From Alphaproteobacteria bacterium (GTDB lineage: Bacteria > Pseudomonadota > Alphaproteobacteria > Ferrovibrionales > Ferrovibrionaceae): a stretch of 64,000 bases of DNA. The first letter of the stretch is position 1, and each line of letters opens with the position of its first letter. The position numbers were made by a program, and so were the translations under genes. The notes under the pieces were generated by a model, which was given only the letters and a program-made list of their open reading frames with translations, had not been told where the DNA came from and searched no databases. The stretch lies in contig JAHCJR010000003.1 of the NCBI GenBank assembly GCA_026126165.1, forward strand, positions 1 through 64,000, given 5' to 3'. Below are positions 1-17,689 of this stretch, piece by piece.

Positions 1-135
1 ACCATCCTGTGCAGCGGCCGTGCTCAGGGTCAGGCCTGCGTTCGAGTCAATCGAGATCGGCATTGCGAGAACTGCCAGCGCAAGGGCGCTGGCCGAGGCC
101 GAAAGCAGAAGCCGTTTGCGTAGCTCGATGTTCAT
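1..135 (-). CDS. N-terminus of a secreted protein, cut by the window edge
   Basis: Only the first 45 codons are present; the rest lies beyond the left edge. The start is supported by a strong AGGAGG ribosome binding site about nine bases upstream of an ATG at 135-133. The residues form a classic signal peptide: a basic N-region (MNIELRKRLLL), an alanine/leucine-rich hydrophobic core, and a possible AAA-type cleavage region near residues 39-43. The mature protein is therefore expected in the periplasm or outside the cell. The function cannot be told from this fragment. It is transcribed away from the TetR gene, across an AT-rich intergenic stretch. Confidence 0.6.
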   Translation of the reverse strand, partial: MNIELRKRLLLSASASALALAVLAMPISIDSNAGLTLSTAAAQDG

Positions 136-483: not shown

Positions 484-1155
484 GTGCATAGCCTGACCAG
501 TGCAAGCCGGACGCGCGGCGTCCATGCAATCGGCAAGAATGGCGGCGTGAGCGCCAAGGAAAAGCTTTTGCAAGCGGCGGAGCATGAATTCGCGGCCAAC
601 GGGCTGCGGGGTGCGCGCATGGACGTCATCGCCCGCCGCGCCGGCGTCAACAAGCAGCTTCTCTACCATTACTTCGGCGACAAGGAAGAGGTCTATCTGG
701 CGACCCTGGAAAGGGTCTACGCGGACTTCCGCCTTCGCGAACAGGAACTCGATCTCGACCATCTGGATCCGTGGGCGGCGATGGAGCGCTTTCTGACGTT
801 CAAGTTTCGCTATCTGGCCGCGCATCCGAACTATGTCGCACTGCTGATGGACGAGAATATGCATCGCGGCCGGCACGTCCGTCGCTCGAAGACGCTGGCG
901 GACATGCACGCTAATCTTGTGGAGAAACTTGCGGCGGTGGTCCGCCGGGGCGAGAGGGCAGGGGTCTTCCGCGAGGGCGTCGATCCGCTTCAGCTCTATA
1001 TCTCGCTCGCGGGGCTCTGCTATTTCTACTTCGGGAACATCCACACCTTGACCGCGGTGCTGCGCCGCAAGCTCGCCAGCCGCAAGGCGCTGGACGAACG
1101 CTGCAGGCATGTCATCGACCTGGTCCGGGCATCGATCCTGAAGCCCGCCGCATGA
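484..1155 (+). CDS. TetR/AcrR family transcriptional regulator
   Basis: A 223-residue one-component regulator. The N-terminal helix-turn-helix domain (about residues 22-70) carries the typical TetR pattern: GARMDVIARRAGVNKQLLYH with F/Y and K/E following the recognition helix. The C-terminal ligand/dimerisation domain follows the form seen in RutR/YsiA-like members. The start is uncertain: a GTG at 484 matches the promoter at 435-465, while a GTG at 547 would begin right at the HTH domain. It lies 65 bases upstream of the DUF3604-Tct operon, and a palindrome at 1194-1207 sits in that gap, so it probably controls the operon by ligand-relieved repression. The ligand is unknown. Confidence 0.85.
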   Translation: MHSLTSASRTRGVHAIGKNGGVSAKEKLLQAAEHEFAANGLRGARMDVIARRAGVNKQLLYHYFGDKEEVYLATLERVYADFRLREQELDLDHLDPWAAMERFLTFKFRYLAAHPNYVALLMDENMHRGRHVRRSKTLADMHANLVEKLAAVVRRGERAGVFREGVDPLQLYISLAGLCYFYFGNIHTLTAVLRRKLASRKALDERCRHVIDLVRASILKPAA

Positions 1156-1162
1156 GCCTTTC

Positions 1163-1192
1163 TTGACGTGGCAGGCCGGCTTCCGTCATTAT
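1163..1192 (+). promoter_or_regulatory. Candidate promoter of the DUF3604-Tct operon
   Basis: TTGACG at 1163-1168 and CATTAT at 1187-1192 are separated by 18 bases. This places transcription start near 1199, inside the palindrome at 1194-1207, and leaves a leader of about 20 bases before the ATG at 1221. Confidence 0.45.
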
Positions 1193-1193
1193 C

Positions 1194-1207
1194 CAACCAG
1201 TTGGTTG
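1194..1207. promoter_or_regulatory. Candidate TetR operator palindrome
   Basis: CAACCAGTTGGTTG is a perfect 6+6 inverted repeat with a 2-base centre. It lies directly downstream of the -10 candidate and upstream of the first operon ATG. Position and symmetry suit repression by the TetR protein encoded just upstream. Confidence 0.5.
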
Positions 1208-1220
1208 ATGCGGGGGCACG

Positions 1221-2714
1221 ATGGCGCGGCGCTACCAGATTCTTTTCGGTGACATCCACAATCACAATGCCCATGGCTATGGCGTCGGATCGATGGAACG
1301 CTCCATCGATGTGGCGCGCACGCATCTGGACTTCTTCGCCTTCACCGGACATTCGAGCTGGCATGATCTCAAACCCATGGAAGGCGGCAGGGAGCGCCAC
1401 TGGCTCAAGGGATTCGAGCGGCTGAAGGAAACCTGGCCCGAGGTTCAGAGACTGATCGCGGCATCGAACCGCGACGGCGAGTTCTCGGCATTCCTTGGTT
1501 TCGAATGGCATTCAAGTACCTTCGGCGACCAGTGCGTCGTTTTTCCCGACGACAATCAGCCGCTGCATTACGCGGACCATGTGGATGAACTCCGGCGGTT
1601 CTGCGCCGCCCGCAACGCGCTTATGATTCCGCATCACGTGGCTTATCCACGCGGCATGCGCGGCGCGAACTGGGATATCTTCACCGAAGAATGCACCCCG
1701 GTCGTCGAAATCTACTCGGAGCACGGCAATTCCGAGGACGATCGCGGCCCGTTCGCGATGTACACGCATTCCATGGGCGGACGGGAAACCGCCAATACCG
1801 CGCGGGCCGCGCTGGAGCGCGGCCTCAAGTTCGGCTTCGTGGCGTCGAGCGACAATCACGCAGGGTTTCCCGGCGCTTATGGCGAGGGCCTGATGGCGGC
1901 GCTGTGCACGGATTTCAGCCGGGCCGGCATCATGGAGGCGATCCGAAGCCGCCGCACCTACGCGCTCACCGGCGATCGCATCGAACTCGATTTCCAGGTC
2001 AATGGCGCGCCGATGGGCGCGGCGATCGCGACCGGCGCCGAGGTCGAAGCGGCCTGGTCGGTCGCGGGACGGGATGAACTGGATGTCCTCGATATCGTTC
2101 AGGACGGCCGGATCGTCCATCGCGACCATGCACGGGAGGCGATCGGGCCGGAAGAGGCGCTGACAGGGCCGGTCCAGGTGCGGCTCGAATGGGGATGGGG
2201 CCCATGGGGGGCGCTGGCGCTGGAGCGGATCTGCGACTGGAAGTTCGGCCTTTCTGTCTCGGGCGGGCGGCTGCGCCGCATCTTCCCATGCTTGCAATCC
2301 GGGCCCTTCGACGAGAACCGCCGTCATCGCTTTCACAGGAGCGGCGAAGACCGGGTGGAGGTGACGTCATATACCTCGCGCAAACAGGCTTACCGCGAGA
2401 ACCCGAACCAGAGCCTGATCCTCGAACTCGACGCCACGCCGGCGCTCGAACTGCAACTCGAGTTCGAGCTGCCGAACCGGGCAACATCCAAGGTAGGATT
2501 TGACGATATTTTCAGGGGTTCGATCAATCGTCAGGTCGGCCCGTTTCCGCAGGAGAGCTGGCAATGGCACCGGGTCGTGCCGCTGGCCGCCTCCTCGCTC
2601 GCCGGCACCTGCCGTTTGCAGGTGCCGCGGCATCCCTCGTACCTTTACGCGAGGGTCAGACAACGCAATGGTCACATGGCCTGGGGCAGCCCGGTCTTTC
2701 TTAACTACCGATAG
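1221..2714 (+). CDS. DUF3604-like PHP-type metal-dependent protein
   Basis: A 497-residue protein with no signal peptide. It opens with FGDIHNHNAHG (residues 9-19), an H-x-H metal motif typical of PHP/amidohydrolase-like phosphoesterase folds. Other likely metal-binding residues follow at FTGHSS (H44), in IPHHVAYP, and in SSDNHAG. The arrangement matches my memory of the DUF3604 family, whose substrate is not established and which often lies near catabolic operons. A GGGGG tract four bases ahead of ATG 1221 is the ribosome binding site. It is the first gene of the operon, 18 bases upstream of tctC, so it is likely a hydrolase acting on the imported carboxylate or a conjugate. The role is inferred from context. 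Confidence 0.72.
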   Translation: MARRYQILFGDIHNHNAHGYGVGSMERSIDVARTHLDFFAFTGHSSWHDLKPMEGGRERHWLKGFERLKETWPEVQRLIAASNRDGEFSAFLGFEWHSSTFGDQCVVFPDDNQPLHYADHVDELRRFCAARNALMIPHHVAYPRGMRGANWDIFTEECTPVVEIYSEHGNSEDDRGPFAMYTHSMGGRETANTARAALERGLKFGFVASSDNHAGFPGAYGEGLMAALCTDFSRAGIMEAIRSRRTYALTGDRIELDFQVNGAPMGAAIATGAEVEAAWSVAGRDELDVLDIVQDGRIVHRDHAREAIGPEEALTGPVQVRLEWGWGPWGALALERICDWKFGLSVSGGRLRRIFPCLQSGPFDENRRHRFHRSGEDRVEVTSYTSRKQAYRENPNQSLILELDATPALELQLEFELPNRATSKVGFDDIFRGSINRQVGPFPQESWQWHRVVPLAASSLAGTCRLQVPRHPSYLYARVRQRNGHMAWGSPVFLNYR

Positions 2715-2732
2715 CAACGGGGAGAAGGCACC

Positions 2733-3677
2733 ATGAAGACGACACGCAGAATCCTGATTGGCGCGCTGCTGGCGCTCCCGCTCGCGACGCACGCATTCAC
2801 CGCCTCGGCGCAGCAGTATCCCGCCAAGCCGATCACCTTCATCGTGCCCTGGCCGGCCGGTGGCACCACGGACATCATCGGCCGTCTGCTTGGCGAGGCA
2901 ATGTCCAAGGAACTCGGCCAGCCGGTCGCCGTGGTCAACCGCGTCGGTGGCGGTGGCGCCGTCGGCACCAAGGCGGCGTTCGATGCACCCAAGGACGGCT
3001 ACACCGTCCTGGTCACGACGAGCGGCAACCATGTGCTGACGCCGATCAAGGGCAATGTCGGATACCAGCCCGATGACTTTATCGGAATCGGGCAAATCTC
3101 CTCCCGCACGCTGATCCTGGCCACCAAGTCGGATCGCTGGAAATCCGCCAGGGAACTGATCGCCGACGCGAAGGCCAATCCGGGCAAGTTCACCTTCGGC
3201 GCGGTTCCGAACGTGTTGCCATTCCTCGTCGCCTCGGGTTTCGCCAGGGCGGCCGAAATCAAGCTCACCCATGTACCGCAGACCGGCGGCGCGCCGGGCG
3301 TGACGGGCGTGCTGGGCGGCCATCTCGATCTCGTGCCGGAAAGCCTTGAGTCCGTGCAGCAGCATCTCAAGTCCGGGGCCATGCGTGGCCTCGTCGTCTT
3401 TAACGAAGCGCGCGACCCGGCGGCGCCCGACGTTCCGACCGCCAAGGAACTGGGCTTCGACGTGGTCGGCAATCCCTGGACCGGCCTGGCGGTGGCCAAG
3501 GGCACGCCCGAGCCGATCGTTGCCCGCCTGCGCGACGTCATGGCGAAGGTCGCCAAGGACCCGGCCTTCGTCGCGACGGTGGAGCGCAGCGGAGCGAGCG
3601 TCGAGTATCTCGACGGTCCGGCATTCACCGCGCTGTTCAGCCGCGACTTCGAGAAGTTCAAGGCGGCCAGCCAGTAG
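2733..3677 (+). CDS. tctC: Tripartite tricarboxylate transporter substrate-binding protein (TctC/Bug family)
   Basis: A 314-residue periplasmic binding protein that captures a carboxylated solute for the TctAB membrane complex. Residues 1-27 are a signal peptide ending near ASAQQ. The family signature follows: YPAKPITFIVPWPAGGTTD, then GRLL and a long Venus-flytrap body. The length is normal for the family. It is preceded by GGGGAG and followed 20 bases later by tctB, so all three Tct components are in one transcript. The Bug family is much expanded in proteobacteria and binds many different acids, so the substrate cannot be named here. Confidence 0.93.
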   Translation: MKTTRRILIGALLALPLATHAFTASAQQYPAKPITFIVPWPAGGTTDIIGRLLGEAMSKELGQPVAVVNRVGGGGAVGTKAAFDAPKDGYTVLVTTSGNHVLTPIKGNVGYQPDDFIGIGQISSRTLILATKSDRWKSARELIADAKANPGKFTFGAVPNVLPFLVASGFARAAEIKLTHVPQTGGAPGVTGVLGGHLDLVPESLESVQQHLKSGAMRGLVVFNEARDPAAPDVPTAKELGFDVVGNPWTGLAVAKGTPEPIVARLRDVMAKVAKDPAFVATVERSGASVEYLDGPAFTALFSRDFEKFKAASQ

Positions 3678-3697
3678 GCAGGGCCGGCGGGGCGCAC

Positions 3698-4147
3698 ATG
3701 AAGCGTCCGAGTGAAGAAGCAGGACTGGCCGCGATCCTTCTCGCGGCCAGTCTCGTGCTCGCGGCGATTACGCCGTTCCAGGTTACCGGGGGCGAAATCT
3801 GGGGCATTGGCTCCGCCACTCTGCCCATCGCACTCGCCGTGGCCATCGCCCTGCTCGCCGCCTGGCTGCTGGTTGATGCCTTGCGGAACCAGCGTCCCGC
3901 CGAAGAGCCGCGGCAGCGAAGCTGGCCGATCCCGGTCATGACGCTCGGCCTCGTTGCCTATATCGCCGCCCTGCCCTGGCTCGGCTTCTATCTGTCAACC
4001 GTTCTTCTGGTCGGCGGCCTCGCCAGACTGTTCGGCGAAGGACGTATCCTGGCTATCCTCGTTTTGGCACTGGCGGTGCCGGCGGTGCTGCTGGTCTTCT
4101 TCGAGCGTTTCATGATCATTCTGCTTCCGGCCGCCGCATGGAACTGA
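3698..4147 (+). CDS. tctB: Tripartite tricarboxylate transporter small membrane subunit (TctB)
   Basis: A 149-residue inner-membrane protein with four predicted hydrophobic segments: about residues 11-28, 38-60, 77-98 and 112-146, the last perhaps two. This is the size and layout of TctB. It partners TctA in the proton- or sodium-driven uptake complex. Its 3' end overlaps the start of tctA by ten bases, indicating translational coupling. Sequence conservation in this family is low, so the call rests on size, topology and position. Confidence 0.88.
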   Translation: MKRPSEEAGLAAILLAASLVLAAITPFQVTGGEIWGIGSATLPIALAVAIALLAAWLLVDALRNQRPAEEPRQRSWPIPVMTLGLVAYIAALPWLGFYLSTVLLVGGLARLFGEGRILAILVLALAVPAVLLVFFERFMIILLPAAAWN

Positions 4148-5625
4148 TCTTTCCTGCCATCGGCGAGGTGATGCAGCCGATCAACCTCGTCGTCATGGCG
4201 ATCGGGCTCGTCATCGGCATGGCGATCGGTGCGATACCGGGGCTCAACGTCCCGCTCGCCGTCGCCATTTCGCTGCCGATCACCTTCCATCTGGCCCCGC
4301 TGGCCGGCATCGCCATGCTGGTGGGCATCTATAAAGGCGGGACTTATGGCGGATCGATCTCCGCCATTCTCATCAACGTCCCGGGAACGCCTGCGGCGGG
4401 CGCGACCGCGCTCGATGGCTATGCGCTGACCCAGCAGGGCCATGCCAGCAAGGCGCTTCGTGTGGCGCTGTACAGTTCGTTTACCGGTGGCCTGATCAGC
4501 GATCTGTCCTTGATCATGTTCGCAATTCCCGTGGCGATGCTTGCGCTCAAGATCGGCCCCGCCGAGAACTTCGCGCTCGGCATCCTCGCGCTGACCCTGA
4601 TCGGCGTCCTGTCCGAAGGTAACATGGTGAAGGGGCTCATCGCCGGTGCGTTTGGCATACTTCTGTCCACCGTCGGGCTCGACCCCCTGAACGGCGAAAC
4701 GCGCCTGACCTTCGGCCTGCTTGATCTTTCCGGCGGCTTTCAGTTCATATCGCTGATCATCGGCGTATTCGCCATCGCCGAGGCGTTCGCGCTGGCCCAT
4801 GCGACGGCGGGGCGCCTGGTCGCCTCGGTCGGCCAGAGGATATCGGCGGCAGGCAAGGGTATGAGTGCTGCCGACTGGCGCCTCTGCCTGCCGGTCATGC
4901 TGCGCGCGGCGCCGGTCGGGGTCTTTATCGGCGCCGTCCCGGGGCTGGGCAGCGCGATCTCGGCCTTCATCAATTACGGTATTGCCCGCAATTTCTCGCG
5001 CGAGCCGGAGAAGTTCGGCAAGGGCTCGCTCGAGGGCGTCGCGGCGGCGGAGTCGGGCAACAATGCCGTCTGCGGTTCGACTTTCATCCCGCTGCTCACG
5101 CTGGGCATCCCCGGCGATACCATCACTGCGATCATGCTTGGCGCCTTCATGGTGCATGGACTGATACCCGGTCCGGCGCTGTTCACGACCAATGCCGATT
5201 TCGTCGCCGCATTCTTTGTCGCCATGCTGGTCTCGAGCATCCTGATGCTTGCGATCGGTCGGCTCGGCCTGCCGCTATTCGTGCAGGCGGTGCGCATCCC
5301 CAACAAGGTGCTTTTCCCGATCGTCGTCGCCCTCTGCATGACGGGCGTCTATGCTTCAAGCAGTTCCTATTTCGATCTCTATGTGATGCTTGGTTTCGGC
5401 CTTCTGGGCTATGGCATGAAGAGGTTCGGTTTTCCCGTCGCGCCCCTGCTGATCGGCTTCATTCTCGGTCCCATCGTCGAGGTTGGGCTGCGTCAGAGCC
5501 TGATCATCTCTCGTGGCAGCCTGGAAATCTTCGTCACGCGACCGATCGCGCTGATCTGCCTCCTCCTTGCAGCGTTGGTGGCGGCATGGGTGGCGATCAG
5601 GCAGAGCAAGGGTGTCAAATCATGA
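4138..5625 (+). CDS. tctA: Tripartite tricarboxylate transporter large membrane subunit (TctA)
   Basis: A 495-residue polytopic membrane protein with about 10-12 hydrophobic helices, the transport subunit of the Tct system. Conserved TctA landmarks are visible: the early GAIPGLNVPLAVAISLP segment, YKGGTYGGSISAILINVPGTP, and in the second half GAVPGLGSAISAFINYG with EGVAAAESGNNAVCGSTFIPLLTLGIPG. The halves look like an inverted pair, each with a PG-rich loop, as known for the family. Its stop overlaps the next start as ATGA, so the following enolase-family gene is translationally coupled to it. Confidence 0.95.
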   Translation: MELIFPAIGEVMQPINLVVMAIGLVIGMAIGAIPGLNVPLAVAISLPITFHLAPLAGIAMLVGIYKGGTYGGSISAILINVPGTPAAGATALDGYALTQQGHASKALRVALYSSFTGGLISDLSLIMFAIPVAMLALKIGPAENFALGILALTLIGVLSEGNMVKGLIAGAFGILLSTVGLDPLNGETRLTFGLLDLSGGFQFISLIIGVFAIAEAFALAHATAGRLVASVGQRISAAGKGMSAADWRLCLPVMLRAAPVGVFIGAVPGLGSAISAFINYGIARNFSREPEKFGKGSLEGVAAAESGNNAVCGSTFIPLLTLGIPGDTITAIMLGAFMVHGLIPGPALFTTNADFVAAFFVAMLVSSILMLAIGRLGLPLFVQAVRIPNKVLFPIVVALCMTGVYASSSSYFDLYVMLGFGLLGYGMKRFGFPVAPLLIGFILGPIVEVGLRQSLIISRGSLEIFVTRPIALICLLLAALVAAWVAIRQSKGVKS

Positions 5626-6752
5626 AGATCGAGCGGATCGAACTGTTCGCGGTTCGTCTTCCCCTGAAGGCGGTCCTGACCCTGGCGCGCGGGGCGTCGC
5701 GCAGCATCGAGGAGGGCAAGCGGCTGGTGCTTCTCAAGATGACCGGAGACGACGGCACTGTCGGCTGGGGCGAGAGTGGGCCGAGCCGACGCTGGTCGGC
5801 AGAGACGCTGGAATCCTGCCTGACAAGCCTGCGCGAGTATCTTGTTCCAGCGGTGCTGGGTCGCGATCCCTTCGATATCGCCGGCCTGCACGAGAGCATG
5901 AACCGCGAACTTGCCCCGATGCTCGATCCGGGGCAGCCGATAGCGAAGAATGCCATCGACGTGGCGGCGCATGATCTAGTCTGCCGCAAGCTCGGCATAC
6001 CGCTGCAGTCATGGTTCGGCGCAAAGCGGCGGAGCGAAGTTCGCCTCGCCCGCCTGGTCTCGGCAGAGACGCCCGAGCAGGCGGAGCGGATCACCCGTGA
6101 TGCGGTGACCGAAGGCTATCAGGGGTTCAAGGTCAAGGTCGGTCATTGGCCCACGCGTGATGCCGATATCCTGCGCGCCGTCAGGGACGCGGCCGAGGGC
6201 GGGTTCGTCTGGCCAGACGCCAATCAGGGCTATGACACGGAACAGGCCCTTGCCATGGCACGCCTCTGCGCCGGTCTTGGCATTACCATCTTCGAGCAAC
6301 CGGTCTCGGTCAGCAACATCCTCGGTCTTGAAGCGCTGCGCCGGTCCGGATTGGTGACGGTGGTGCTCGACGAGTCCGTCATGTCGCCGGCCATGATCAT
6401 CGATTTCCTGCGCCGCGATCTGATCGAGGGCATTGCCGTCAAGGTGAACAAGGCTGGTGGCTTGCATCACGCGCGACAGATGTGCGACATCGCACTGAAC
6501 TCGGGACTCAAGCTGATCGGCAGTGGGCTGATGGACGCGCCGATCGGCTTCGTGGCGTCCAGTCATCTGTTCGCCGCCTATGGCATGGAGCTCCCCGTGG
6601 ATCTGAACGGACCGCAATTCATTGCCGAGGATTATCTGCGCGAGCCGCTGGTGCTCGAGCGGCAGACATTTTGCATCCCGGACCGTCCCGGACTCGGCAT
6701 CGAGGTCGACGAGGAGAAGGTCGCGAGATTCGGGCTCCCGGTGGCGGCCTGA
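5622..6752 (+). CDS. Mandelate racemase/muconate lactonizing enzyme family protein (enolase superfamily)
   Basis: A 376-residue cytosolic enzyme that abstracts the alpha proton of a carboxylate with Mg2+ help. The N-terminal capping domain (about 1-125) precedes the TIM barrel. MLE-type active-site residues are visible: FKVKVG with K170 and K172, metal ligands D199 (PDANQGY), E225 (FEQP) and D250 (LDES), and the opposite-face lysine K274 (AVKVNKAGG). This lysine/lysine set fits cycloisomerases, epimerases or o-succinylbenzoate synthases rather than mandelate racemase itself. The ATG at 5622 overlaps the tctA stop. The likely substrate is the acid brought in by TctABC or a product of the neighbouring hydrolases. 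Confidence 0.88.
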   Translation: MKIERIELFAVRLPLKAVLTLARGASRSIEEGKRLVLLKMTGDDGTVGWGESGPSRRWSAETLESCLTSLREYLVPAVLGRDPFDIAGLHESMNRELAPMLDPGQPIAKNAIDVAAHDLVCRKLGIPLQSWFGAKRRSEVRLARLVSAETPEQAERITRDAVTEGYQGFKVKVGHWPTRDADILRAVRDAAEGGFVWPDANQGYDTEQALAMARLCAGLGITIFEQPVSVSNILGLEALRRSGLVTVVLDESVMSPAMIIDFLRRDLIEGIAVKVNKAGGLHHARQMCDIALNSGLKLIGSGLMDAPIGFVASSHLFAAYGMELPVDLNGPQFIAEDYLREPLVLERQTFCIPDRPGLGIEVDEEKVARFGLPVAA

Positions 6753-6754
6753 AC

Positions 6755-8311
6755 ATGGCACGAAACGTCCTCTTCATCATGTGCGACCAGTTGCGCGCCG
6801 ATCACCTTGGCTGTGCAGGCCATCCGGCCCTGCGGACGCCCAATATCGATCGACTGGCCAGGCGCGGCGTGCGCTTCTCGAACGCCTTCGTGCAGTCTCC
6901 GGTCTGCGGCCCGTCGCGCATGTCCTTCTATACCGGCCGGTACGTGTTCAGCCATGGCGCGAGCTGGAATCGCGTGCCGCTTAGCCTGCGGGAACTTACG
7001 ATCGGCGATTACCTGCGCCCGCTAGGCATCGATGCGGCGCTGGCAGGCAAGACCCACGTCCTGCCGGACGAGGCGGCGCTGGAGCGTTTCGGCATCGAAG
7101 GCGCCTCGGCCATATCGGCGCTGCTTCGCAACGGTGGCTTTGTCGAACTGGACCGCTATGACGGACATTCGCCGCCGGGCAGCGAAAGCCATTATGCCGA
7201 CTTCCTGCGCGACCACGGCTACGTGAGCGGGGATCCGTGGAGCGACTACGTGATCTCGGTCGCGGGCCCGGGCGGGGAAGTTCTGAGCGGCTGGAACATG
7301 CGCAATGTGCGGCATCCCGCGCGTGTGGCGGCCCGGCATTCGGAGACCGCCTACATGACCGACCAGGCGATGGCCTTCATCCGCGCCCGTGGCGACAGGC
7401 CATGGTTCCTGCATCTGAGCTATGTCAAGCCCCATTGGCCCTATGTCGCGCCGGCACCCTATAACGACATGCATGGCGTCGACGACTGTCTTCCTGTCAT
7501 CCGCCATCCGCGCGAGATCGGCGAGGCGCACCCGGTGGTCGCCGCCTACCGTCAGCACGACGAGTCCGTCAGCTTCGCGCGCGACGAGGTGATCGAGACG
7601 GTGCGGCCGGTCTATATGGGCCTTGTGCGGCAGATCGACGACGAGCTCGGGCGCCTCTTCGCCCTGCTGGAGGAGACGGGGCGCTGGTCCGATACGCTGA
7701 TCGTCTTCACGGCCGATCACGGCGATCTGCTCGGCGACCACTGGCTCGGCGAGAAGGAACTGTTCTATGAATCCGCGTTGCGGATTCCCTTCATTCTCTA
7801 CGATCCGGATCGCGCGGCCGATGCCAGCCGTGGCCGGGTGGACGGGCGGCTGGTGGAGGGGGTCGATCTTTTGCCCACCTGCCTGGATGCGTTGGGCATC
7901 GAGATACCGCGGCATCTGATCGAAGGCCGTTCGCTGCTGGCCGCGACGCGCGGCGGGGATGGGCCGTGGCGGGACTTTGTCGTCTCGGAACTCGATTACT
8001 CGTTTCGCAAGGCGCGGCACATCTTGCGGCGGGGGCCGCGCGAGTGCCGTGGCTGGATGATACGTGACGAAAGATGGAAGTACGTGCTTTGGGATGGATT
8101 CCGCCCGCAACTCTTCGATCTGGTGGACGATCCCGAAGAGTTCGCCGATCTTGGCGGCGATCCCGGTCATGAGGGCGTGCGCCGGGACATGCACGAGCGG
8201 CTGTTCGGCTGGATGCGCGGGCGCAAGCTGCGCACCACCGTCGACGATGCCTGGGTCGAGGCGCGCACCGACGCCCATCGCCGACACGGCATCCACTACG
8301 GCATCTGGTAG
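6755..8311 (+). CDS. Formylglycine-type sulfatase / phosphonate monoester hydrolase-like enzyme
   Basis: A 518-residue alkaline-phosphatase-superfamily hydrolase. The sulfatase signature CGPSR lies at 51-55, followed by MSFYTGRY; C51 would be oxidised to formylglycine by a maturation enzyme not encoded in this window. Metal and substrate residues fit the family: D11 (MCDQ), H220 and H227, D321-H322 (TADHGD) and K334. The overall pattern, including the HLSYVKPHWPY region and the tail of arginine/histidine-rich residues, recalls rhizobial phosphonate monoester hydrolases more than classic arylsulfatases, but I cannot settle which ester it cleaves. ATG 6755 is two bases after the previous stop. 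It ends the operon and meets the next gene tail to tail. Confidence 0.85.
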   Translation: MARNVLFIMCDQLRADHLGCAGHPALRTPNIDRLARRGVRFSNAFVQSPVCGPSRMSFYTGRYVFSHGASWNRVPLSLRELTIGDYLRPLGIDAALAGKTHVLPDEAALERFGIEGASAISALLRNGGFVELDRYDGHSPPGSESHYADFLRDHGYVSGDPWSDYVISVAGPGGEVLSGWNMRNVRHPARVAARHSETAYMTDQAMAFIRARGDRPWFLHLSYVKPHWPYVAPAPYNDMHGVDDCLPVIRHPREIGEAHPVVAAYRQHDESVSFARDEVIETVRPVYMGLVRQIDDELGRLFALLEETGRWSDTLIVFTADHGDLLGDHWLGEKELFYESALRIPFILYDPDRAADASRGRVDGRLVEGVDLLPTCLDALGIEIPRHLIEGRSLLAATRGGDGPWRDFVVSELDYSFRKARHILRRGPRECRGWMIRDERWKYVLWDGFRPQLFDLVDDPEEFADLGGDPGHEGVRRDMHERLFGWMRGRKLRTTVDDAWVEARTDAHRRHGIHYGIW

Positions 8312-8317
8312 GCGCCT

Positions 8318-9376
8318 TCAAGAGCCATCGCGTGGCGCGCGCGGCCAGGCATTGATGATCGCCTGGATGACGGTGGCCAGCGGAATGGCGAAGAACACCC
8401 CCCAGAATCCCCAGAGTCCACCGAAGAAAAGGATGGCGACGATGATTGCTACTGGATGGATGTTCACCGCGTCGCTGAGCAGGAGCGGCGCGAGGACGTT
8501 ACCGTCGATTGCCTGGATCACGGCATAGGCAATCAGCACATAGAGAAAATCATCGCTGATGCCCCATTGCGCATAGGCGACGAGGGCGACCGGCAGGGTG
8601 ACGACGACGGCGCCGACATAGGGGATCAGCACGGAGAGGCCGGTAGCGACGGCGAGCAGGGCTGCATAGTTCAGGCCGAGAAGCTGGAAGGTCACGAAGG
8701 TCGCCGCCGCGACGATCACGATCTCGACGGACTTGCCGCGGATATAATTGCTCATCTGCTGCTCGACCTCGGCCCAGACCCGGCTCGCGAGTTCCCGTTC
8801 CCTGGGCAGGAAGGCGGTGAGCCAGGCAATGATCCGTTCATGGTCGCGCAGGAAGAAGAAGACGAGAAAGGGGAGCAGAACACAGTAGACGAGCAGCGTG
8901 ACGGCGCCGACGACCGAGGAAAAGGAGTAGCTCAGCGCCATCTGGCTGATGGCTATGATCTCGGCCCTTAGGGTCTGCATGGCACTGGCGACCTCCGCCT
9001 CGGAGATGAAGGTGGGGTAGCGTTCGGGGAGCTGCATCAGCGCCGACTGCGCTGCAAGCAGCATCGCCGGCACCTGCTGGACGAGGAGCGTGAGCTGCTG
9101 GAACAGCATGGGCAGGAGCCAAAAGATGACGAGCAGAAGCATTGTCACAAAAAGCAGGAACACTACAAGAACGGCGGCCAGATGCGGCATTCCGGCGCGG
9201 CGCAGCCAGCGCACCGGCGGATGCAGGAGAAAGGCCAGAATGACTCCGGCGATGACCGGCGCCAGCATCCGGGCGGTGGCAATGATGGCGATGCCGGCCA
9301 CAAGCAGGATCGCCGTCAGGATCACCACCTGCGGGTTAGAAAATGTCTGCTGGAACCAGCGGCGGATCGTTTCCAT
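8318..9376 (-). CDS. AI-2E family transporter (PerM-like permease)
   Basis: A 352-residue inner-membrane protein with about eight hydrophobic helices: two near the N-terminus, a pair around residues 65-95, a soluble loop, then a C-terminal set. The family features are present: the LLHPPVRWLRR loop, FFFLRD after the fourth helix, LIPYVGAVVVTLP, and IDGNVLAPLLLS. This superfamily includes autoinducer-2 exporters and ion antiporters, so the substrate is unknown. It converges on the sulfatase-like gene with a six-base gap, leaving no room for a separate terminator. It is not obviously linked to the genes on either side. Confidence 0.9.
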   Translation of the reverse strand: METIRRWFQQTFSNPQVVILTAILLVAGIAIIATARMLAPVIAGVILAFLLHPPVRWLRRAGMPHLAAVLVVFLLFVTMLLLVIFWLLPMLFQQLTLLVQQVPAMLLAAQSALMQLPERYPTFISEAEVASAMQTLRAEIIAISQMALSYSFSSVVGAVTLLVYCVLLPFLVFFFLRDHERIIAWLTAFLPRERELASRVWAEVEQQMSNYIRGKSVEIVIVAAATFVTFQLLGLNYAALLAVATGLSVLIPYVGAVVVTLPVALVAYAQWGISDDFLYVLIAYAVIQAIDGNVLAPLLLSDAVNIHPVAIIVAILFFGGLWGFWGVFFAIPLATVIQAIINAWPRAPRDGS

Positions 9377-9456: not shown

Positions 9457-10584
9457 TCAGTCCCGCCACTGACCGTTCAGCACCATGCCCCGGCATCGCA
9501 GATGCGCGCTCCCCTGCAACCTTTCGCCGGTGGAATCCACGAAATCGAACCGTCCTTCTTCGACGGAGAGGATGGTGGCATCGCCCAACAGGCCCGGGCG
9601 TAGGGTGCCGCGATCCCCCCGCCCGATGGCCCGCGCGGGATTGATGGTGCTGGCGCGGATTACCTCGCCAAGCGGAATCCCCAAGGCCAGGAATTTCGAC
9701 ATGGTGTTGAGCTGATCATAGGCGGGGCCGTTGATGGACAAGGTATGCACGTCGCTCGAGATCACATCGGGCAGGAATCCGGCCTTGAGCATGCCGACCG
9801 CCGTCTCGAAGCCGAAGCTTCCCTTGCCGTGCCCAATATCGAATATGACGCCGCGCGCGCGCGCCTGCCGGACGTCCTCGTGGATGCGATCGTCCGCGAT
9901 CAGCGGCGAATTGGGGAACGGCCGGAAACAGTGCGTCAGGATATCGCCACGGCGCAGCCGCGGAAGCACTTCGCCACGATAGGGCGGAGGGTGATCCAGG
10001 TGGGCCATGACGGGAAGGCCGAGCCGGCCCGCCGTCTCGAGACCCATGTCGAGCGGCGCGATGCCGATCGGTCCACTCGTCGAGCGGCCGACCCTCACCT
10101 TGATTCCGACCACGATATCGGCATGCTCGCGTGCCGCGGCGATACAGTCGATGGGAGAGATCAGCCGTAGGTTCTCGCACTCGCCAACCATGACATTCTG
10201 GCTGAAGGCGAAGATGCCGGGAAACGAGATGTTGAGAAATGGCAGGATGCGCACCTCGGCACGTTCGATTACGTGCCGGCGGAAACCCAGGATGTTGGCG
10301 GGGCCGGCGGAGCCGGCATCGACCAGGGTCGTGCAGCCCGACCGCCGCGCATAGGCATCGGGCTCGACGCCAAGCGAGGTGCCGCCGAAATAGACGTGGG
10401 AATGCAGGTCGATCAGACCCGGCGTCACGATCCGCCCCGCGACGTCGCGGATTTCCCGTCCTTCCAGTCGTTCCCCGATGGCTGCGACCTTGCCGTCGGA
10501 GAAAGCGACGTCGACGATCCGGTCGATGCCCTGGTCGGGATCGATGACGCGACCGCCACGCAGTACGAGATCGTGCATGTCCAA
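9457..10584 (-). CDS. Amidohydrolase family deacetylase/deacylase (COG3964-like)
   Basis: A 375-residue cytosolic metal hydrolase. The N-terminal beta-sandwich strand FDLVLRGG-type start is followed by VTPGLIDLHSHVYFGG with the H-x-H pair H61/H63. The bridging lysine is expected in VVGIKVRVGRS, further histidines lie in MAHLDHP and LTHCFRP, and the catalytic aspartate in ISSDVHTL. This set and the length match the COG3964 group. From memory, characterised members release acetate from acetylated alpha-hydroxy or amino acids. It sits eight bases downstream of the PLP-enzyme gene and is the last gene of the leftward block, which suits a late step of N-acyl amino acid processing. Exact substrate unknown. 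Confidence 0.82.
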   Translation of the reverse strand: MDMHDLVLRGGRVIDPDQGIDRIVDVAFSDGKVAAIGERLEGREIRDVAGRIVTPGLIDLHSHVYFGGTSLGVEPDAYARRSGCTTLVDAGSAGPANILGFRRHVIERAEVRILPFLNISFPGIFAFSQNVMVGECENLRLISPIDCIAAAREHADIVVGIKVRVGRSTSGPIGIAPLDMGLETAGRLGLPVMAHLDHPPPYRGEVLPRLRRGDILTHCFRPFPNSPLIADDRIHEDVRQARARGVIFDIGHGKGSFGFETAVGMLKAGFLPDVISSDVHTLSINGPAYDQLNTMSKFLALGIPLGEVIRASTINPARAIGRGDRGTLRPGLLGDATILSVEEGRFDFVDSTGERLQGSAHLRCRGMVLNGQWRD

Positions 10585-10592
10585 TCCGCCCG

Positions 10593-11672
10593 TCAGGTCA
10601 GCTTGCCGCGCGCCGCGACGGGAAGCTCGCCCACGATCTCGTCGCCGCGCACGGTCACGAAACGGTCCACCATGTTGGAGACCACGCAGACATGGTTGGG
10701 TATAACGCGCACCACCTCGCCGATCTCGGGACGACGATTGGAGGCGGAAAGGTCGAGAAAGCCATGTTCCTCGGAAAACTTGGCGATGCGCGCCTGCGGG
10801 TATTCGAGGATCATGCCGTAGCCGTCGAGGTCGGGTGGCCGGTCGCTGGTCAGCGTCTTCGAGCCGGAATCAAGAATGCCCCGGTCGCTTGCCGCCCGGC
10901 TGACTACCGTGGCATGCACGGTCAGCGCGCAGTCTTCGAGCCGGGCCGCACCGCAGGCCATCATCATGCGGTCGTTGAAGATGCAAGTGCCGGCCCGGTG
11001 TTCGGTGACGCCGCGTATCTTGCCGAGATTGGCGAGATTTGGCGTACCTCCGTTCGAGACGACGCGCACTTCGAGGCCCGCCGCGCGCACGCCTTGCGTC
11101 GCCTCATCGAGAAACGCCTGCGTGGCTGCGATGGCATCTTCGGGTGGATAGATCATGAAACCGGCAAAGCGCAGGCCTGGTCGCGAAGCGATGTCCCGGG
11201 CAAGCGCGATCGCCTCACCCGGGGTCTCCACACCCGCACGCTTGCGGCCGGTGTCGCATTCCACCAGGACATCGAGCGGACGGTCTGCCTCAAGCCGCCC
11301 CAGACCCTCCACCACGACCGGATTGTCGGCGGCGACGCTCACCCTGGCGCGTCGCAGCAGGCGGGCCAGACGGGCAATCTTCTCCTCGCCGAGGAGGTTG
11401 TAGCTGATGAAGATGTCGTCGAGTCCACCATCGGCCATGACCTCCGCTTCGCCAAGCTTCTGGCAGGTAATGCCGCTTGCCCCCGCATCGCGCTGCATCG
11501 CCGCAAGAACCGGGCTCTTGTGGGTCTTGATGTGCGGGCGGTTGCCGATGCCGGCGGCATCGCACATGGCCTGGACGCGGGCGATGTTGCGCTCGACGAT
11601 GTCGAGATCGACGACCACGGCCGGCGTTCCGAAGTTGCGCGCGATCTCGCGCTTGAGTCTTTCGATATTCAT
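10593..11672 (-). CDS. D-threonine aldolase / D-serine dehydratase-like PLP enzyme
   Basis: A 359-residue fold-type III (alanine-racemase-like) PLP enzyme. The N-terminal barrel opens with GTPAVVVDLDIVERN and carries the PLP lysine motif RPHIKTHKSP (K49 expected to form the Schiff base). Further family landmarks are CQKLGEAEVM, VVSNGGTPNL and the C-terminal metal-site region with IPNHVCVVSNM, whose His and Cys match the metal pair of D-threonine aldolase and D-serine dehydratase. These enzymes act on D-beta-hydroxy amino acids. The ATG at 11672 follows GAGGGAcc; a longer in-frame extension upstream overlaps the amidase gene and is not needed. Its place between an amidase and a deacetylase supports a role in D-amino acid catabolism. 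Confidence 0.86.
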   Translation of the reverse strand: MNIERLKREIARNFGTPAVVVDLDIVERNIARVQAMCDAAGIGNRPHIKTHKSPVLAAMQRDAGASGITCQKLGEAEVMADGGLDDIFISYNLLGEEKIARLARLLRRARVSVAADNPVVVEGLGRLEADRPLDVLVECDTGRKRAGVETPGEAIALARDIASRPGLRFAGFMIYPPEDAIAATQAFLDEATQGVRAAGLEVRVVSNGGTPNLANLGKIRGVTEHRAGTCIFNDRMMMACGAARLEDCALTVHATVVSRAASDRGILDSGSKTLTSDRPPDLDGYGMILEYPQARIAKFSEEHGFLDLSASNRRPEIGEVVRVIPNHVCVVSNMVDRFVTVRGDEIVGELPVAARGKLT

Positions 11673-11680
11673 GGTCCCTC

Positions 11681-13177
11681 TCAGGAGAATGCGCTCGCGG
11701 GCGGCGGCGCCGTCACGATGGATTTCAGTTCCGGCCTCGGCGCCGCCAGCCGTTGCAGATCGGGTCGCGGCCGGCCGAGTTCCGGCATGCGCGCGAACAC
11801 CTGCTCGAGTTCCTCGGCCGCATCGAGCAGAGCGAGATCGCCACGGAAGCGTCCGATGACCTGAAGCCCGAAAGGCATGCCCTTGCCATCGGTGCCGCAA
11901 GGCAGGGCGATCGCCGGGTTTGTCGTCAGGGTGATGAAATAGGTCAATGCCAGCCAATGGTAATAGTTGCGCAGCCTCACGCCGTCGAGGCTCTCGAGAT
12001 AAAGCTGTCGCCAGGGGAAGGGGGAAACCGGCGTGGTCGGCGCCATGACCAGATCGTAATCGCGAAACGTGCCCTGGAAGCGGCGAAAGAGTTTGGTCTG
12101 CTCGGCATGGGCCCAGGCCGCATCGGCAAGGCTCATTGCTGCCCCGATCTCGTAGTTGGCGCGAATGTTCGGCCCGAGTTGCGCGCGGTCGCGGTCGTAG
12201 GTCTCCTTGTGACGTGCAACGAAGTTGAGCGCCCGAATGACGTCGAAGCAGCGGTCCGCCTCGCCGAAGTCGAAGCTGACTTCCTCGCAGCGATGAAAAA
12301 GGTGCGCAATCCGCTTCATGCGCGCACGCATGAGGTCACGAACTTCGTTGCCGACCGGGCACTGGCCGAAATCCGTCGTCCAGGCGACGCGGAGCCCGCC
12401 AAGGTCGAGAGGGCGATGGCTGCCCGCCCGATCCGGATCGAGCGGCTGGGAGAGCGGATCGCGATCATCGACGCCAAGCTGGGCGGCAAAGAGAAGGCGC
12501 GTGTCCGCGACGTTGCGGCCCATCGGTCCGAGGACGGAAATCGGCGTCCAGCCAAGTCCGCGTCCATCCATGGGGACGAGGCCGGGCGATGGCCGGAAGC
12601 CGACGACACCGCAGAGCGCGGCAGGAATGCGGAGCGAGCCCCCCGTGTCCGATCCGGTGCAGATCGGCAGCATGTCGCAGGCCAGCGCCGCCGCCGATCC
12701 ACCCGACGAGCCGCCGGCATTCAGTTCCGGATCGAAGGGATTGCCGGTCGCTCCCCAGACCGGGTTACGGGAATTGGCGCCGGCGCCGAATTCCGGCACG
12801 TTGGTCTTGGCGACGACGATGGCACCTGCGCGGCGGACGAGTGCCACCTGGGCCGAATCCGCCTTTGGGACATGGTCGCGGTAAAGGGGCGAGCCGTGCG
12901 TGGTGAGCAGGCCCGCCGTGTCTTGCAGATCCTTGATACCCACGGGCAGGCCATGCAGCCGGCCAAGCGGCTCGCCGCGCTGCACGGCCGCCTCCGCCGC
13001 CCGGGCCTCGGCGCGCGCCCGCGCAAAGCACCGGGCGGCGATGGCATTGACCGCAGGGTCTAGCCGTTCGATGCGCGCGATGCAGGATTCGAGCAGTTCG
13101 ACCGGCGAAACCTCCCGCCTCCCGATCAGGCGGCGGAGTTCGGTCGCCGGAAGTTCTGCAAGCTGGTCCATCGGCAT
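11681..13177 (-). CDS. Amidase signature family hydrolase
   Basis: A 498-residue Ser-cisSer-Lys amidase. The triad is visible: K82 (GIKDL), cis-Ser S157 in the glycine/serine-rich NAGGSSGGS loop, and nucleophile S181 in GSDTGGSLRIPA. The 24-residue spacing between the two serines is that of well-studied members. There is no GatB/GatC neighbour, so it is a catabolic amidase rather than the tRNA amidotransferase subunit. It is eight bases upstream of the PLP-enzyme gene and 19 bases downstream of the peptide transporter ATPase, so it probably deamidates or deacylates imported material in the cytosol. Confidence 0.92.
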   Translation of the reverse strand: MPMDQLAELPATELRRLIGRREVSPVELLESCIARIERLDPAVNAIAARCFARARAEARAAEAAVQRGEPLGRLHGLPVGIKDLQDTAGLLTTHGSPLYRDHVPKADSAQVALVRRAGAIVVAKTNVPEFGAGANSRNPVWGATGNPFDPELNAGGSSGGSAAALACDMLPICTGSDTGGSLRIPAALCGVVGFRPSPGLVPMDGRGLGWTPISVLGPMGRNVADTRLLFAAQLGVDDRDPLSQPLDPDRAGSHRPLDLGGLRVAWTTDFGQCPVGNEVRDLMRARMKRIAHLFHRCEEVSFDFGEADRCFDVIRALNFVARHKETYDRDRAQLGPNIRANYEIGAAMSLADAAWAHAEQTKLFRRFQGTFRDYDLVMAPTTPVSPFPWRQLYLESLDGVRLRNYYHWLALTYFITLTTNPAIALPCGTDGKGMPFGLQVIGRFRGDLALLDAAEELEQVFARMPELGRPRPDLQRLAAPRPELKSIVTAPPPASAFS

Positions 13178-16219: not shown

Positions 16220-17689
16220 TCAATAGATCAGTCCCGGCCGCGTCTCGGCATCGAGCGGCCAGATCGGGCGCGCAATGCGCGTATAGGGGATCTTCCGGTA
16301 GTCGCGGCTGAGCGGCGCATCGGACTCGACATAGATGACTTTCCGGGCGATCGGGCCGAACGCGGCCATGAAATGGTTCGTCGATTTCACCACCACCACT
16401 TGCCGCGTCGTCGGGTCAATTCCCACGTTCTGAAACAACTCGAGTCCCAGAGCCTGCGTGCGGCCACTGATGAGAACGACCTCGATGCCGCCTAGCCGGA
16501 TCGCCGCGCAGTCGCCGAGCGAGACGCGCGTCGGACCGAACGACTGCCAGCAATCGCGCTTCAGGCCGGTCACCTCGACTGTCGCGTCGATGGGCTGGCC
16601 CGAGGCGGGACCGATCTTGCCACCGAAGCGAAGCGGGATACTGGCGCCCAGGCCCGCATCGAAGCACAGTCGGACCGCGACCGGGTCCCAGAGGGGGCCA
16701 ACCGCGGCGGATTGGGCGCCGCACTCGATGAGCTGGCGCAGGATCGTCGTGTTGTCGGAGGGGGCGCCGCCACCGGCATTGTCCGCCGGATCGGCGAGGA
16801 TGACCGGCCGGTCGTTGAAGGCAAGAGCCGTGCGCACTCCGTCCGCGACGGACAGGAACTCCGGCATGGTTCGGCCGCGCATGGAGACGAACTCCTCGCC
16901 CAGTTGCGTGGCAAGCGCGTCTGCCTTGCCCTTGTCGCCATCCGCGATGACGAGGATGCGTCCGCCGAGTTCGGGAACGTCGGCATAGGGAAAGCAGTGC
17001 ACGACGGAGACTGAGAGGATCCCGTTTGTTCCTTCCATCGCCTTGATCCGGTCGACGAAGGCACGCATGAGCGGCAAGGTTGTAGGGTAGCTGCCTATTT
17101 GCCGGCAGTCGTATAGCGACATGACCGGCCTGATCTCGCCCCGGATTGTGCCAAGCACGAGGCGGAGCAGATCTTCGGCCCGGTCGACCACGTCGGTATG
17201 CGGAAACTCCTTGTAGCAAATGATGATATCTGCCGATTGGACGCGCTTCAGGGTCATGTGGCAGTGCGGATCGAGTTCCACGCCGATGACACAGCGTTCG
17301 CCGACAATGGCGCGCGCCCGTTCGATGATGTCGCCTTCCACGTCGTCGTATCCATGCGCCACCATGGCGCCGTGCAGTCCGAGCAGCAGGCCATCCAGGG
17401 GGAGGGCGGCGCGCATCTGCTCGAGGACTTCGTCGCGCATGCGCTCGTAGTCCTGGCGGTTGACGGTGCCGGCGGGGCTCGCGGCGAAGCAGGAACCTTC
17501 GATCAGCGTGAAGCCCTGCCGTGCCGCCTCCCGGCGGGCGACGAACAGTGGCGCGGTGCAGCTTCGCGGCGCGTCGTCCGGATGTTCGCCCGGTCGCAGG
17601 AAGACCAGTTCGCGAAAGGCGTCAATGCCCGTGGGAAGCGGGGAGAAGGTGTTGGTTTCGGTGGCGATGGTGGCGGAGAAAAGACGCAT
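16220..17689 (-). CDS. M81 family metallopeptidase (MlrC-like), copy 1
   Basis: A 489-residue protein of the DUF1485/MlrC family, whose namesake microcystinase C cleaves linear peptides from cyclic-peptide breakdown. Family landmarks: AxIATETNTFSP at the N-terminus, LLGLHGAMVAHGYDDVEGD, the metal motif ELDPHCHMT (H-x-H), KEFPHTD, DPADNAGGGAPSDNT and KSTNHFMAAF near the C-terminus. No signal peptide is present, so it acts in the cytosol after import. It lies 30 bases downstream of a second M81 gene and 130 bases upstream of a Dpp-type permease, tying it to peptide uptake. MlrC-like genes are far commoner than microcystin degraders, so the natural substrate is probably some other peptide or amide. 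Confidence 0.88.
   Translation of the reverse strand: MRLFSATIATETNTFSPLPTGIDAFRELVFLRPGEHPDDAPRSCTAPLFVARREAARQGFTLIEGSCFAASPAGTVNRQDYERMRDEVLEQMRAALPLDGLLLGLHGAMVAHGYDDVEGDIIERARAIVGERCVIGVELDPHCHMTLKRVQSADIIICYKEFPHTDVVDRAEDLLRLVLGTIRGEIRPVMSLYDCRQIGSYPTTLPLMRAFVDRIKAMEGTNGILSVSVVHCFPYADVPELGGRILVIADGDKGKADALATQLGEEFVSMRGRTMPEFLSVADGVRTALAFNDRPVILADPADNAGGGAPSDNTTILRQLIECGAQSAAVGPLWDPVAVRLCFDAGLGASIPLRFGGKIGPASGQPIDATVEVTGLKRDCWQSFGPTRVSLGDCAAIRLGGIEVVLISGRTQALGLELFQNVGIDPTTRQVVVVKSTNHFMAAFGPIARKVIYVESDAPLSRDYRKIPYTRIARPIWPLDAETRPGLIY

Follow-up and report, generated by a model that had tools for sequence, protein, structure and literature searches.

A TetR-linked operon of a Ferrovibrionaceae bacterium with a BT4655-type hydrolase and an SpAS-type sulfatase: a candidate route for a sulfated carboxylate

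Layout and regulation of the operon

The window analyzed here is a stretch of 64,000 nucleotides (contig JAHCJR010000003.1, assembly GCA_026126165.1) of an Alphaproteobacteria bacterium of the family Ferrovibrionaceae, which is represented by a metagenome-assembled genome (MAG) of 161 contigs and 81% completeness. Positions 484 to 8311 contain a tetR gene and six structural genes, which we examined as a candidate operon for the catabolism of a sulfated carboxylate. The features are as follows.

484-1155, forward strand: TetR-family regulator, 223 residues (TetR_N and TetR_C_29 matches; the GTG at 547 is an alternative start)
1163-1192, forward strand: sigma-70-like promoter TTGACG-18-CATTAT, candidate operon promoter (promoter scan; hexamers unchanged in the sister MAG)
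1187-1210, no strand: imperfect palindrome CATTATCCAACC/AGTTGGTTGATG, 9 of 12 pairs, candidate TetR operator (covers the -10 element; identical in the sister MAG)
1221-2714, forward strand: PHP/DUF3604 metallohydrolase of the BT4655 type, proposed N-sulfatase (sulfamate hydrolase), from family matches, clade, and slot homology
2733-3677, forward strand: TctC-type periplasmic solute-binding protein (PF03401, 140.7 bits)
3698-4147, forward strand: TctB small membrane subunit (PF07331, 60.8 bits)
4138-5625, forward strand: TctA large membrane subunit (PF01970, 471.3 bits)
5622-6752, forward strand: enolase-superfamily (MLE-type) enzyme (MR_MLE_N/C matches; K172, D199, E225, D250, K274)
6755-8311, forward strand: SpAS-type formylglycine sulfatase, 518 residues (Sulfatase match; C51 in CGPSR)

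All seven genes are open reading frames (ORFs) at or near the positions that a sequence-only reading of this stretch had given them, and the family names it had used (TetR, DUF3604, TctC/B/A, MLE-type, and Sulfatase) agree with the Pfam matches. That reading had also regarded the six rightward genes, with gaps of 2-20 bases or overlaps, as one operon; the spacing between the structural genes (+18, +20, -10, -4, and +2 bases) and the same order in a sister MAG bear this out. The gap between tetR and the PHP gene is 65 bases. A convergent AI-2E-type transporter gene (8318-9376) directly follows the sulfatase gene, and, therefore, the operon ends at 8311. The ORF listed for the last gene (609 residues, from 6482) extends back into the MLE-type gene; a start at 6755 gives 518 residues, and relatives align from residues 1-4 onward. 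TctC, TctB, and TctA are adjacent and each exceeds its Pfam cut-off, which makes a complete tripartite tricarboxylate transporter and upholds the carboxylate-type importer proposed earlier.

The sister MAG has an identical gene order and protein identities of 92-99% (95.5% for TetR); its contig stops inside the sulfatase gene, after residue 450. Since the same block is present in both MAGs, it is not a chance of one assembly. We also considered that there is no single pathway and that broad-range scavenging genes came by chance to lie in one run under one promoter. Each gene family occurs alone elsewhere, and no genome beyond these two MAGs, both of one genus, was found to have the exact gene set. 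However, the overlapping genes, the single candidate promoter, and the same order in both MAGs argue against a chance run, which we regard as highly improbable.

The TetR repressor likely acts on the promoter downstream of its own gene. Two promoter-like sites of this kind were found in 8.6 kb against 1.7 expected by chance, and, thus, the candidate at 1163-1192 is weak alone. The unchanged palindrome adds little because the sister MAG is very close. Terminator-like sites were about as frequent as chance predicts (8 against 6.0); one lies at 2681-2694, where the PHP gene ends. Independent promoters had been named in the sequence-only reading as a point against a common function; tetR and the operon may indeed be under separate promoters, but a simple scan revealed no promoter-like site within the six structural genes.

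The terminal sulfatase and the MLE-type enzyme

The last protein carries a CGPSR sulfatase-type motif at residues 51-55, as previously read, and retains the active-site residues D11, C51, K99-T100-H101, H227, D321, H322, and K334. From the alignment and general knowledge, we take D11, D321, and H322 to be metal-site residues, and the roles of the others are likewise presumed. The protein aligned over nearly its whole length with 4UPI and 4UPL (546 and 512 bits), whereas its scores against the phosphonate monoester hydrolases 2w8s and 2vqr were 263 and 258 bits. 4UPI is SpAS1 (PMC5870055) and 4UPL is SpAS2 (PMC12421950). The window protein has the KTH triplet in common with SpAS1 and SpAS2; at this site, YTT is found in the aligned phosphonate monoester hydrolase. 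Judged from its sequence, the last gene is an SpAS-type arylsulfatase gene, closest to the enzymes of S. pomeroyi and not to the phosphonate monoester hydrolases. The window protein shares the formylglycine motif and aligned active-site motifs with SpAS1 and SpAS2, for which we know of no natural substrate. PehA (NF045661) was rejected for this gene (340.7 bits against a cut-off of 900). The same genome also contains an FGE-like open frame (two match stretches on contig C129). PADLOC, which bears on a role in defense, gave no match for the two hydrolases tested.

The PHP superfamily includes phosphoesterases, and this would suit an organic acid esterified with phosphonate or phosphate, which the sequence-only reading had placed beside a sulfated acid. 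SpAS-type enzymes also have a side activity on phosphonate monoesters; however, SpAS2 prefers sulfate approximately 500-fold over phosphonate, with kcat/KM of 2.1e5 on 4-nitrophenyl sulfate, 4.0e2 on phenylphosphonate, and 5.6 on phosphate (PMC12421950). Moreover, the similarity of the last protein to phosphonate monoester hydrolases is half in bits, the PHP clade described below is linked to sulfatases, and the operon contains no phosphonate genes. The phosphonate or phosphate option is thereby weakened and appears improbable, while a sulfated organic acid is likely.

The SpAS-type family is common, being present in 55 of the 385 genomes of the class at E 1e-100, the own genome included. We fetched loci from four of 66 plasmid records (H21, H22, H23, and H25; H21 is unannotated) and 20 of 59 other genome places (the 18 best-scoring plus two of lower rank). 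The 20 genome loci were screened only for Tct genes, sulfatase genes, and relatives of the seven proteins encoded at 484-8311. Tct genes were found in the fetched stretch around the SpAS-type gene at 3/4 plasmid loci and 4/20 genome loci. Each of the 20 genome stretches (12-19 kb) held one sulfatase ORF, namely, the bait; one of them (L051) additionally had two short C-terminal sulfatase-like pieces (tblastn). SpAS-type sulfatase genes adjoin Tct genes at some other loci as well, such as that of Ruegeria pomeroyi near ring-cleavage-type genes. In NC_006569, R. pomeroyi has a relative that shares 50.8% identity with the window sulfatase. On the megaplasmid of this species (SPO_RS20400-20435), the SpAS-type sulfatase gene directly adjoins TctB, TctA, and TctC genes, a combination that it shares with the window, but ring-cleavage-type genes are present instead of the PHP and MLE-type genes. 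In order, this locus (L073, 891-8647) comprises cupin, FAH-family, and Asp/Glu racemase genes, TctB/TctA/TctC, and then the SpAS-type sulfatase gene, and it may represent an operon for a gentisate-like acid in sulfated form.

These neighborhoods raise the alternative of an O-sulfated aromatic acid, from which the SpAS-type enzyme would free the phenol; the MLE-type enzyme would then cycloisomerize the ring-cleavage product, and the PHP protein would open an ester, carbamate, or lactone in the manner of CehA/McbA. The cupin, FAH-family, and Asp/Glu racemase genes of R. pomeroyi represent a gentisate-type set beside TctBAC, and in Variovorax RA8, an SpAS-type gene adjoins a TctC gene with a Rieske gene approximately 6 kb upstream. 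However, the window operon has no ring-cleaving dioxygenase gene.

The MLE-type enzyme also bears on this alternative. It aligns with the subgroup lysines K172 and K274 and the metal ligands D199, E225, and D250, roles that we assume from the subgroup; 2P88, 1JPM, 3I4K, and 2CHR have the same two lysines and three metal ligands. Scores against the best structures were 137, 127, 127, and 124 bits, and these are labeled a family protein, Ala-Glu epimerase, muconate lactonizing enzyme, and chloromuconate cycloisomerase. The window enzyme is, thus, about equally close to several MLE-subgroup functions, but falls under the cut-off of each of its 17 NCBIfam matches. The best of these is muconate/chloromuconate cycloisomerase (TIGR02534), which agrees with an aromatic substrate; however, membership was not supported (179.8 bits, cut-off 334.95). 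No relative was detected at E 1e-60 in 384 other genomes of the class or at E 1e-50 in 297 other genomes of the phylum. Its active site is complete, and no close relative was found.

The PHP protein, its clade, and the BT4655 slot

The PHP protein matched DUF3604 (PF12228) weakly (31.4 bits, cut-off 20.4), with no single stretch being significant; PF12228 matched 12 of the 14 PHP family rows at E 0.01. A whole-genome PF12228 search was uninformative because it gave no match anywhere, the gene in the window and 14 control genomes included. The PHP profile also met 2anu weakly (E 0.014), which is presumably the PHP protein TM0559. The motifs HxH, H, E, H, H, and DxH are present (H13, H15, H44, E95, H138, H168, D211, and H213), and we take these residues to be metal ligands. 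By eye, the protein has no signal peptide. A match to CehA/McbA (NF038032) adds to the case for an aromatic acid; however, at 57.7 bits against a cut-off of 80, membership of this family was rejected.

A tblastn search of 72,556 plasmid records matched 17, in 12 cases with 80% or more of the query covered; the matches in H14-H17 were about half-length (24-26%), and these four records were left out of the locus set. The scan of genome contigs added the sister MAG and an Opitutales MAG, and no further relatives were found in the viral contig scan. In the 385 genomes of the class, the protein occurred in two at E 1e-20 (its own and G202, the latter over residues 6-294 only). Among 61 relatives, it was present in the own genome and the sister (G385), and in none of 16 other genomes of the same family. 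A 14-row profile found two of 299 genomes of the phylum at 1e-30 (its own and G615, over 304 positions only).

In a 17-row tree, read as an unrooted split of 10 and 7 rows with two long branches on the latter side, a clade with support of 98/99 holds the window protein, sister, Palleronia, Bacteroides finegoldii, Subdoligranulum, the Opitutales MAG, Marinovum, Salipiger, Sinorhizobium sp. RAC02, and Roseateles sp. XES5. Outside the clade are three haloarchaeal rows, Cetobacterium, and three more distant relatives (G202 [L004], Natrinema [L068], and Halomontanus [L069]; two are annotated DUF3604), which are outer rows and were not counted as family. The window, sister, and Palleronia proteins form a long branch of their own within the clade, the inner branching of which lacks resolution. 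With the distant three removed, 34 positions are invariant in 14 rows, including D11, H13, E95, H138, H139, Y142, R147, W151, H168, and D211. Clade members retain the histidines of H44 and H213, whereas the former is missing in the three haloarchaeal rows and Cetobacterium and the latter in the haloarchaeal rows. Haloarcula (L065 and L066) and Cetobacterium (L067), which lack the H44 histidine, have no sulfatase in the fetched flanks and are near genes of sugar ABC transporters or of an N-acetylglucosamine-type PTS; these proteins may have another activity. The PHP genes of Roseateles sp. XES5 (L061) and Sinorhizobium sp. RAC02 (L059) are very similar, but are filed under different classes; the former record is flagged UNVERIFIED_ORG, and its species label may be wrong.

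The window protein aligned by BLASTP with B. finegoldii WP_022275186 at 31% identity (509 aligned columns, E 7e-77, residues 2-493). The B. finegoldii locus reads TonB receptor, SusD, DUF4995, HepC, sulfatase, WP_022275186, ROK, sugar MFS transporter, and DUF4962. Its sulfatase aligns over residues 23-535 to PDB 5g2v, an N-acetylglucosamine-6-sulfatase (1164 bits), and its HepC to PDB 5jmd (1432 bits); we take 5g2v to be BT4656 and 5jmd to be BT4657. The heparin locus of B. thetaiotaomicron is numbered as sulfatase BT4656, BT4655, kinase BT4654, transporter BT4653, and lyase BT4652 (PMC10154612, PMC9067506). Since the two orders agree, WP_022275186 occupies the BT4655 slot. Deletion of BT4655 led to poorer growth on heparin/heparan sulfate and left GlcNS in the medium, and a 2023 review described it as a novel, biochemically uncharacterized sulfatase family (PMC10154612). 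It has also been termed a predicted 2-N-sulfatase (PMC9067506) and a putative glucosamine N-sulfatase for which no formylglycine dependence is predicted (PMC11980591).

Through the slot protein, BT4655 and the window protein are linked by full-length homology, a common clade, and the same His/Asp/Glu metal-site pattern, and both types have a sulfatase gene nearby. On the other hand, the window protein shares only 31% identity with the slot protein and lacks a Tat-type N-terminus, and its gene lies with a Tct transporter and an enolase-family enzyme, whereas the BT4655 locus has lyases, a ROK kinase, and SusCD. The window protein groups with the BT4655-type family, a proposed N-sulfatase family, and, therefore, an N-S bond appears to be a better guess than an ester. 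The earlier proposal of an ester-cleaving PHP-like hydrolase, thus, stands for the hydrolase family, but the ester now appears less likely.

The clade was also linked to sulfatase genes. ORFs were sought in the fetched flanks with a sulfatase profile built for this analysis, and 9/10 clade rows had one, corresponding to six of seven lineages when window/sister, Marinovum/Salipiger, and Sinorhizobium/Roseateles were each counted once. The profile had been trained in part on these sulfatases; each of the six concerned was still found when it was left out of the training (E 1.7e-53 or better). Outside the clade, one of the four nearer rows (Halomicrobium) and none of the three distant relatives had a sulfatase ORF in the flanks, one of the latter flanks being just 2.4 kb. 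Seven control stretches of 50 kb, one per clade-member plasmid, contained no sulfatase ORF, whereas the shorter PHP flanks of the same plasmids had one in 6/7. Positions for the controls, all distant from the loci, were chosen by hand and not at random, and they cover the plasmids, not the Opitutales contig, the phylum of which is rich in sulfatases. The neighboring sulfatases vary in score and type; thus, the link between PHP and sulfatase genes looks functional, not inherited as one block. The conserved neighborhood of DUF3604 and a sulfatase-like gene that had been anticipated was accordingly observed in this clade. A similar expectation for TctC failed, with no Tct gene at any of the 12 other PHP-family loci.

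The same neighborhoods suggest a sulfated sugar acid, such as a heparan-type N-sulfated glucosamine derivative, the uronate part of which would be carried by TctCBA. Clade loci contain sugar ABC transporter, ROK, SIS-domain, Gfo/Idh/MocA, and heparin lyase genes, and all annotated ones other than that of Palleronia adjoin sugar genes, a pattern that, together with the sulfatase linkage, also counts against the aromatic acid. (A longest-ORF caller chose antisense frames in GC-rich loci, and its lists were unused except for four genes of L063, three confirmed by Pfam and one without a match.) Some enolase-family enzymes dehydrate sugar acids, and NCBIfam names among the matches of the MLE-type enzyme agree. 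However, its scores against sugar-acid dehydratase models were low (19-86 bits, cut-offs 311-829), the operon has no lyase, glycosidase, kinase, or deaminase gene, and the absence of Tct from the 12 other PHP loci does not favor uronate import. We consider a sugar acid unlikely.

The nearest PHP relative outside the genus is that of Palleronia sp. LCG004 (RVY76_RS14740-14770; 52-53% identity). At this locus (L057, 7979-17355), the PHP gene is flanked by an NMT1-type ABC transporter and, as the next gene, a glutamine-synthetase-like one, with a LigXa-C-type oxygenase gene upstream; neither a sulfatase nor a Tct gene was found in 29 kb. The glutamate ligation of a free amine is a known first step of amine catabolism. 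The glutamine-synthetase-like neighbor fits an enzyme that frees amines from sulfamates, which is suggestive only, and the locus is a candidate sulfamate or N-sulfo-amine route. The PHP gene of Palleronia is also near oxygenase and protocatechuate genes, which fits an aromatic substrate. Taking both sides together, we regard the O-sulfated aromatic acid as doubtful, although it is more probable than the sugar acid.

Proposed pathway

A sulfated carboxylate, probably with an N-sulfo group, is the likeliest substrate because the last gene is closest to the arylsulfatases of S. pomeroyi, not to phosphonate monoester hydrolases. We propose, with roughly an even chance of being correct, a TetR-repressed catabolic operon for such a compound, with the removal of O-sulfate and probably of the N-sulfo group. 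TctC would capture the intact acid in the periplasm and TctAB would import it. In the cytoplasm, two hydrolases of unrelated families would take off sulfo groups: the formylglycine arylsulfatase-type enzyme would cleave an O-sulfate, and the PHP-type enzyme would release a sulfo group that is most likely attached to nitrogen, yielding sulfate and a free amine. The enolase-family enzyme would remove the proton alpha to the carboxylate for racemization, cycloisomerization, or elimination. The acid or a product may bind TetR and free the promoter at 1163-1192.

Several points weigh against this proposal. To our knowledge, no N-sulfated carboxylate is a nutrient of this organism. The missing Tct genes at the other PHP loci count here too, as does the lack of a sulfatase gene in the 29 kb of Palleronia, the closest relative. 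No PHP- or MLE-like gene was found at the 20 SpAS-type genome loci, and the MLE-type enzyme, by its scores, fits no named family. With 31% identity, a long branch, and a clade order that is not settled, the substrate of the PHP protein may differ from that of the slot protein. The AlphaFold model, built from only three sequences (window, L002, and L003), had a pLDDT of 42.6 and was not used. BT4655 was purified without an activity being reported in the excerpt of that work (PMC11980591), and beyond the mutant, no biochemistry of BT4655 was found in the excerpts of the 2023 review and the open-licence literature, outside which most subscription papers lie.

More specifically, and with lower probability, the operon may be a dedicated route for an N-sulfonated carboxylate, with import by Tct, racemization by an enolase-family enzyme of new function, and N-S hydrolysis by a metal-dependent enzyme of the BT4655 family in a context other than sugar metabolism; the substrate may be, for example, an N-sulfo amino acid or a sulfamate fragment derived from a natural product. 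No such route was found among the matches listed in the open-licence literature. The acesulfame route of Bosea, Chelatococcus, and Shinella likewise breaks down a sulfamic acid derivative, but uses a metallo-beta-lactamase-type or formylglycine sulfatase and an amidase, and the excerpts of these papers mention no PHP enzyme (PMC10413263, PMC11500405). An acesulfame-type route was rejected for the window because other enzymes are used.

Other genes of the window were also noted. On the reverse strand, 9457-13177 encodes an amidohydrolase/deacetylase (PRK09237, over the cut-off), a BhcC-like aldolase-family protein (below the cut-off), and an amidase, which suggests the use of D-amino-acid or N-acyl compounds next door. 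Two tandem reverse-strand genes (16220-17689 and 17720-19252) encode MlrC/M81 (microcystinase-family) metallopeptidases, which, with 414 and 163 bits, fall far short of the 999 bits set as the cut-off for microcystinase in NCBIfam and are near Opp/Dpp-type ABC transporter genes and an amidase gene. A divergent gene (1-135, reverse strand) appears by eye to start with a signal-peptide-like N-terminus and is truncated at the edge of the window.

Enzymes that cleave N-S bonds are important for the breakdown of heparan sulfate and for sulfamate pollutants. The new element described herein is a predicted BT4655-type hydrolase in a carboxylate-linked operon and without a visible export signal. Its compact setting with TctC and TetR leaves the substrate open to ligand screening and makes the reaction of the family directly testable. 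In this branch, the DUF3604 label may, thus, gain a testable function.

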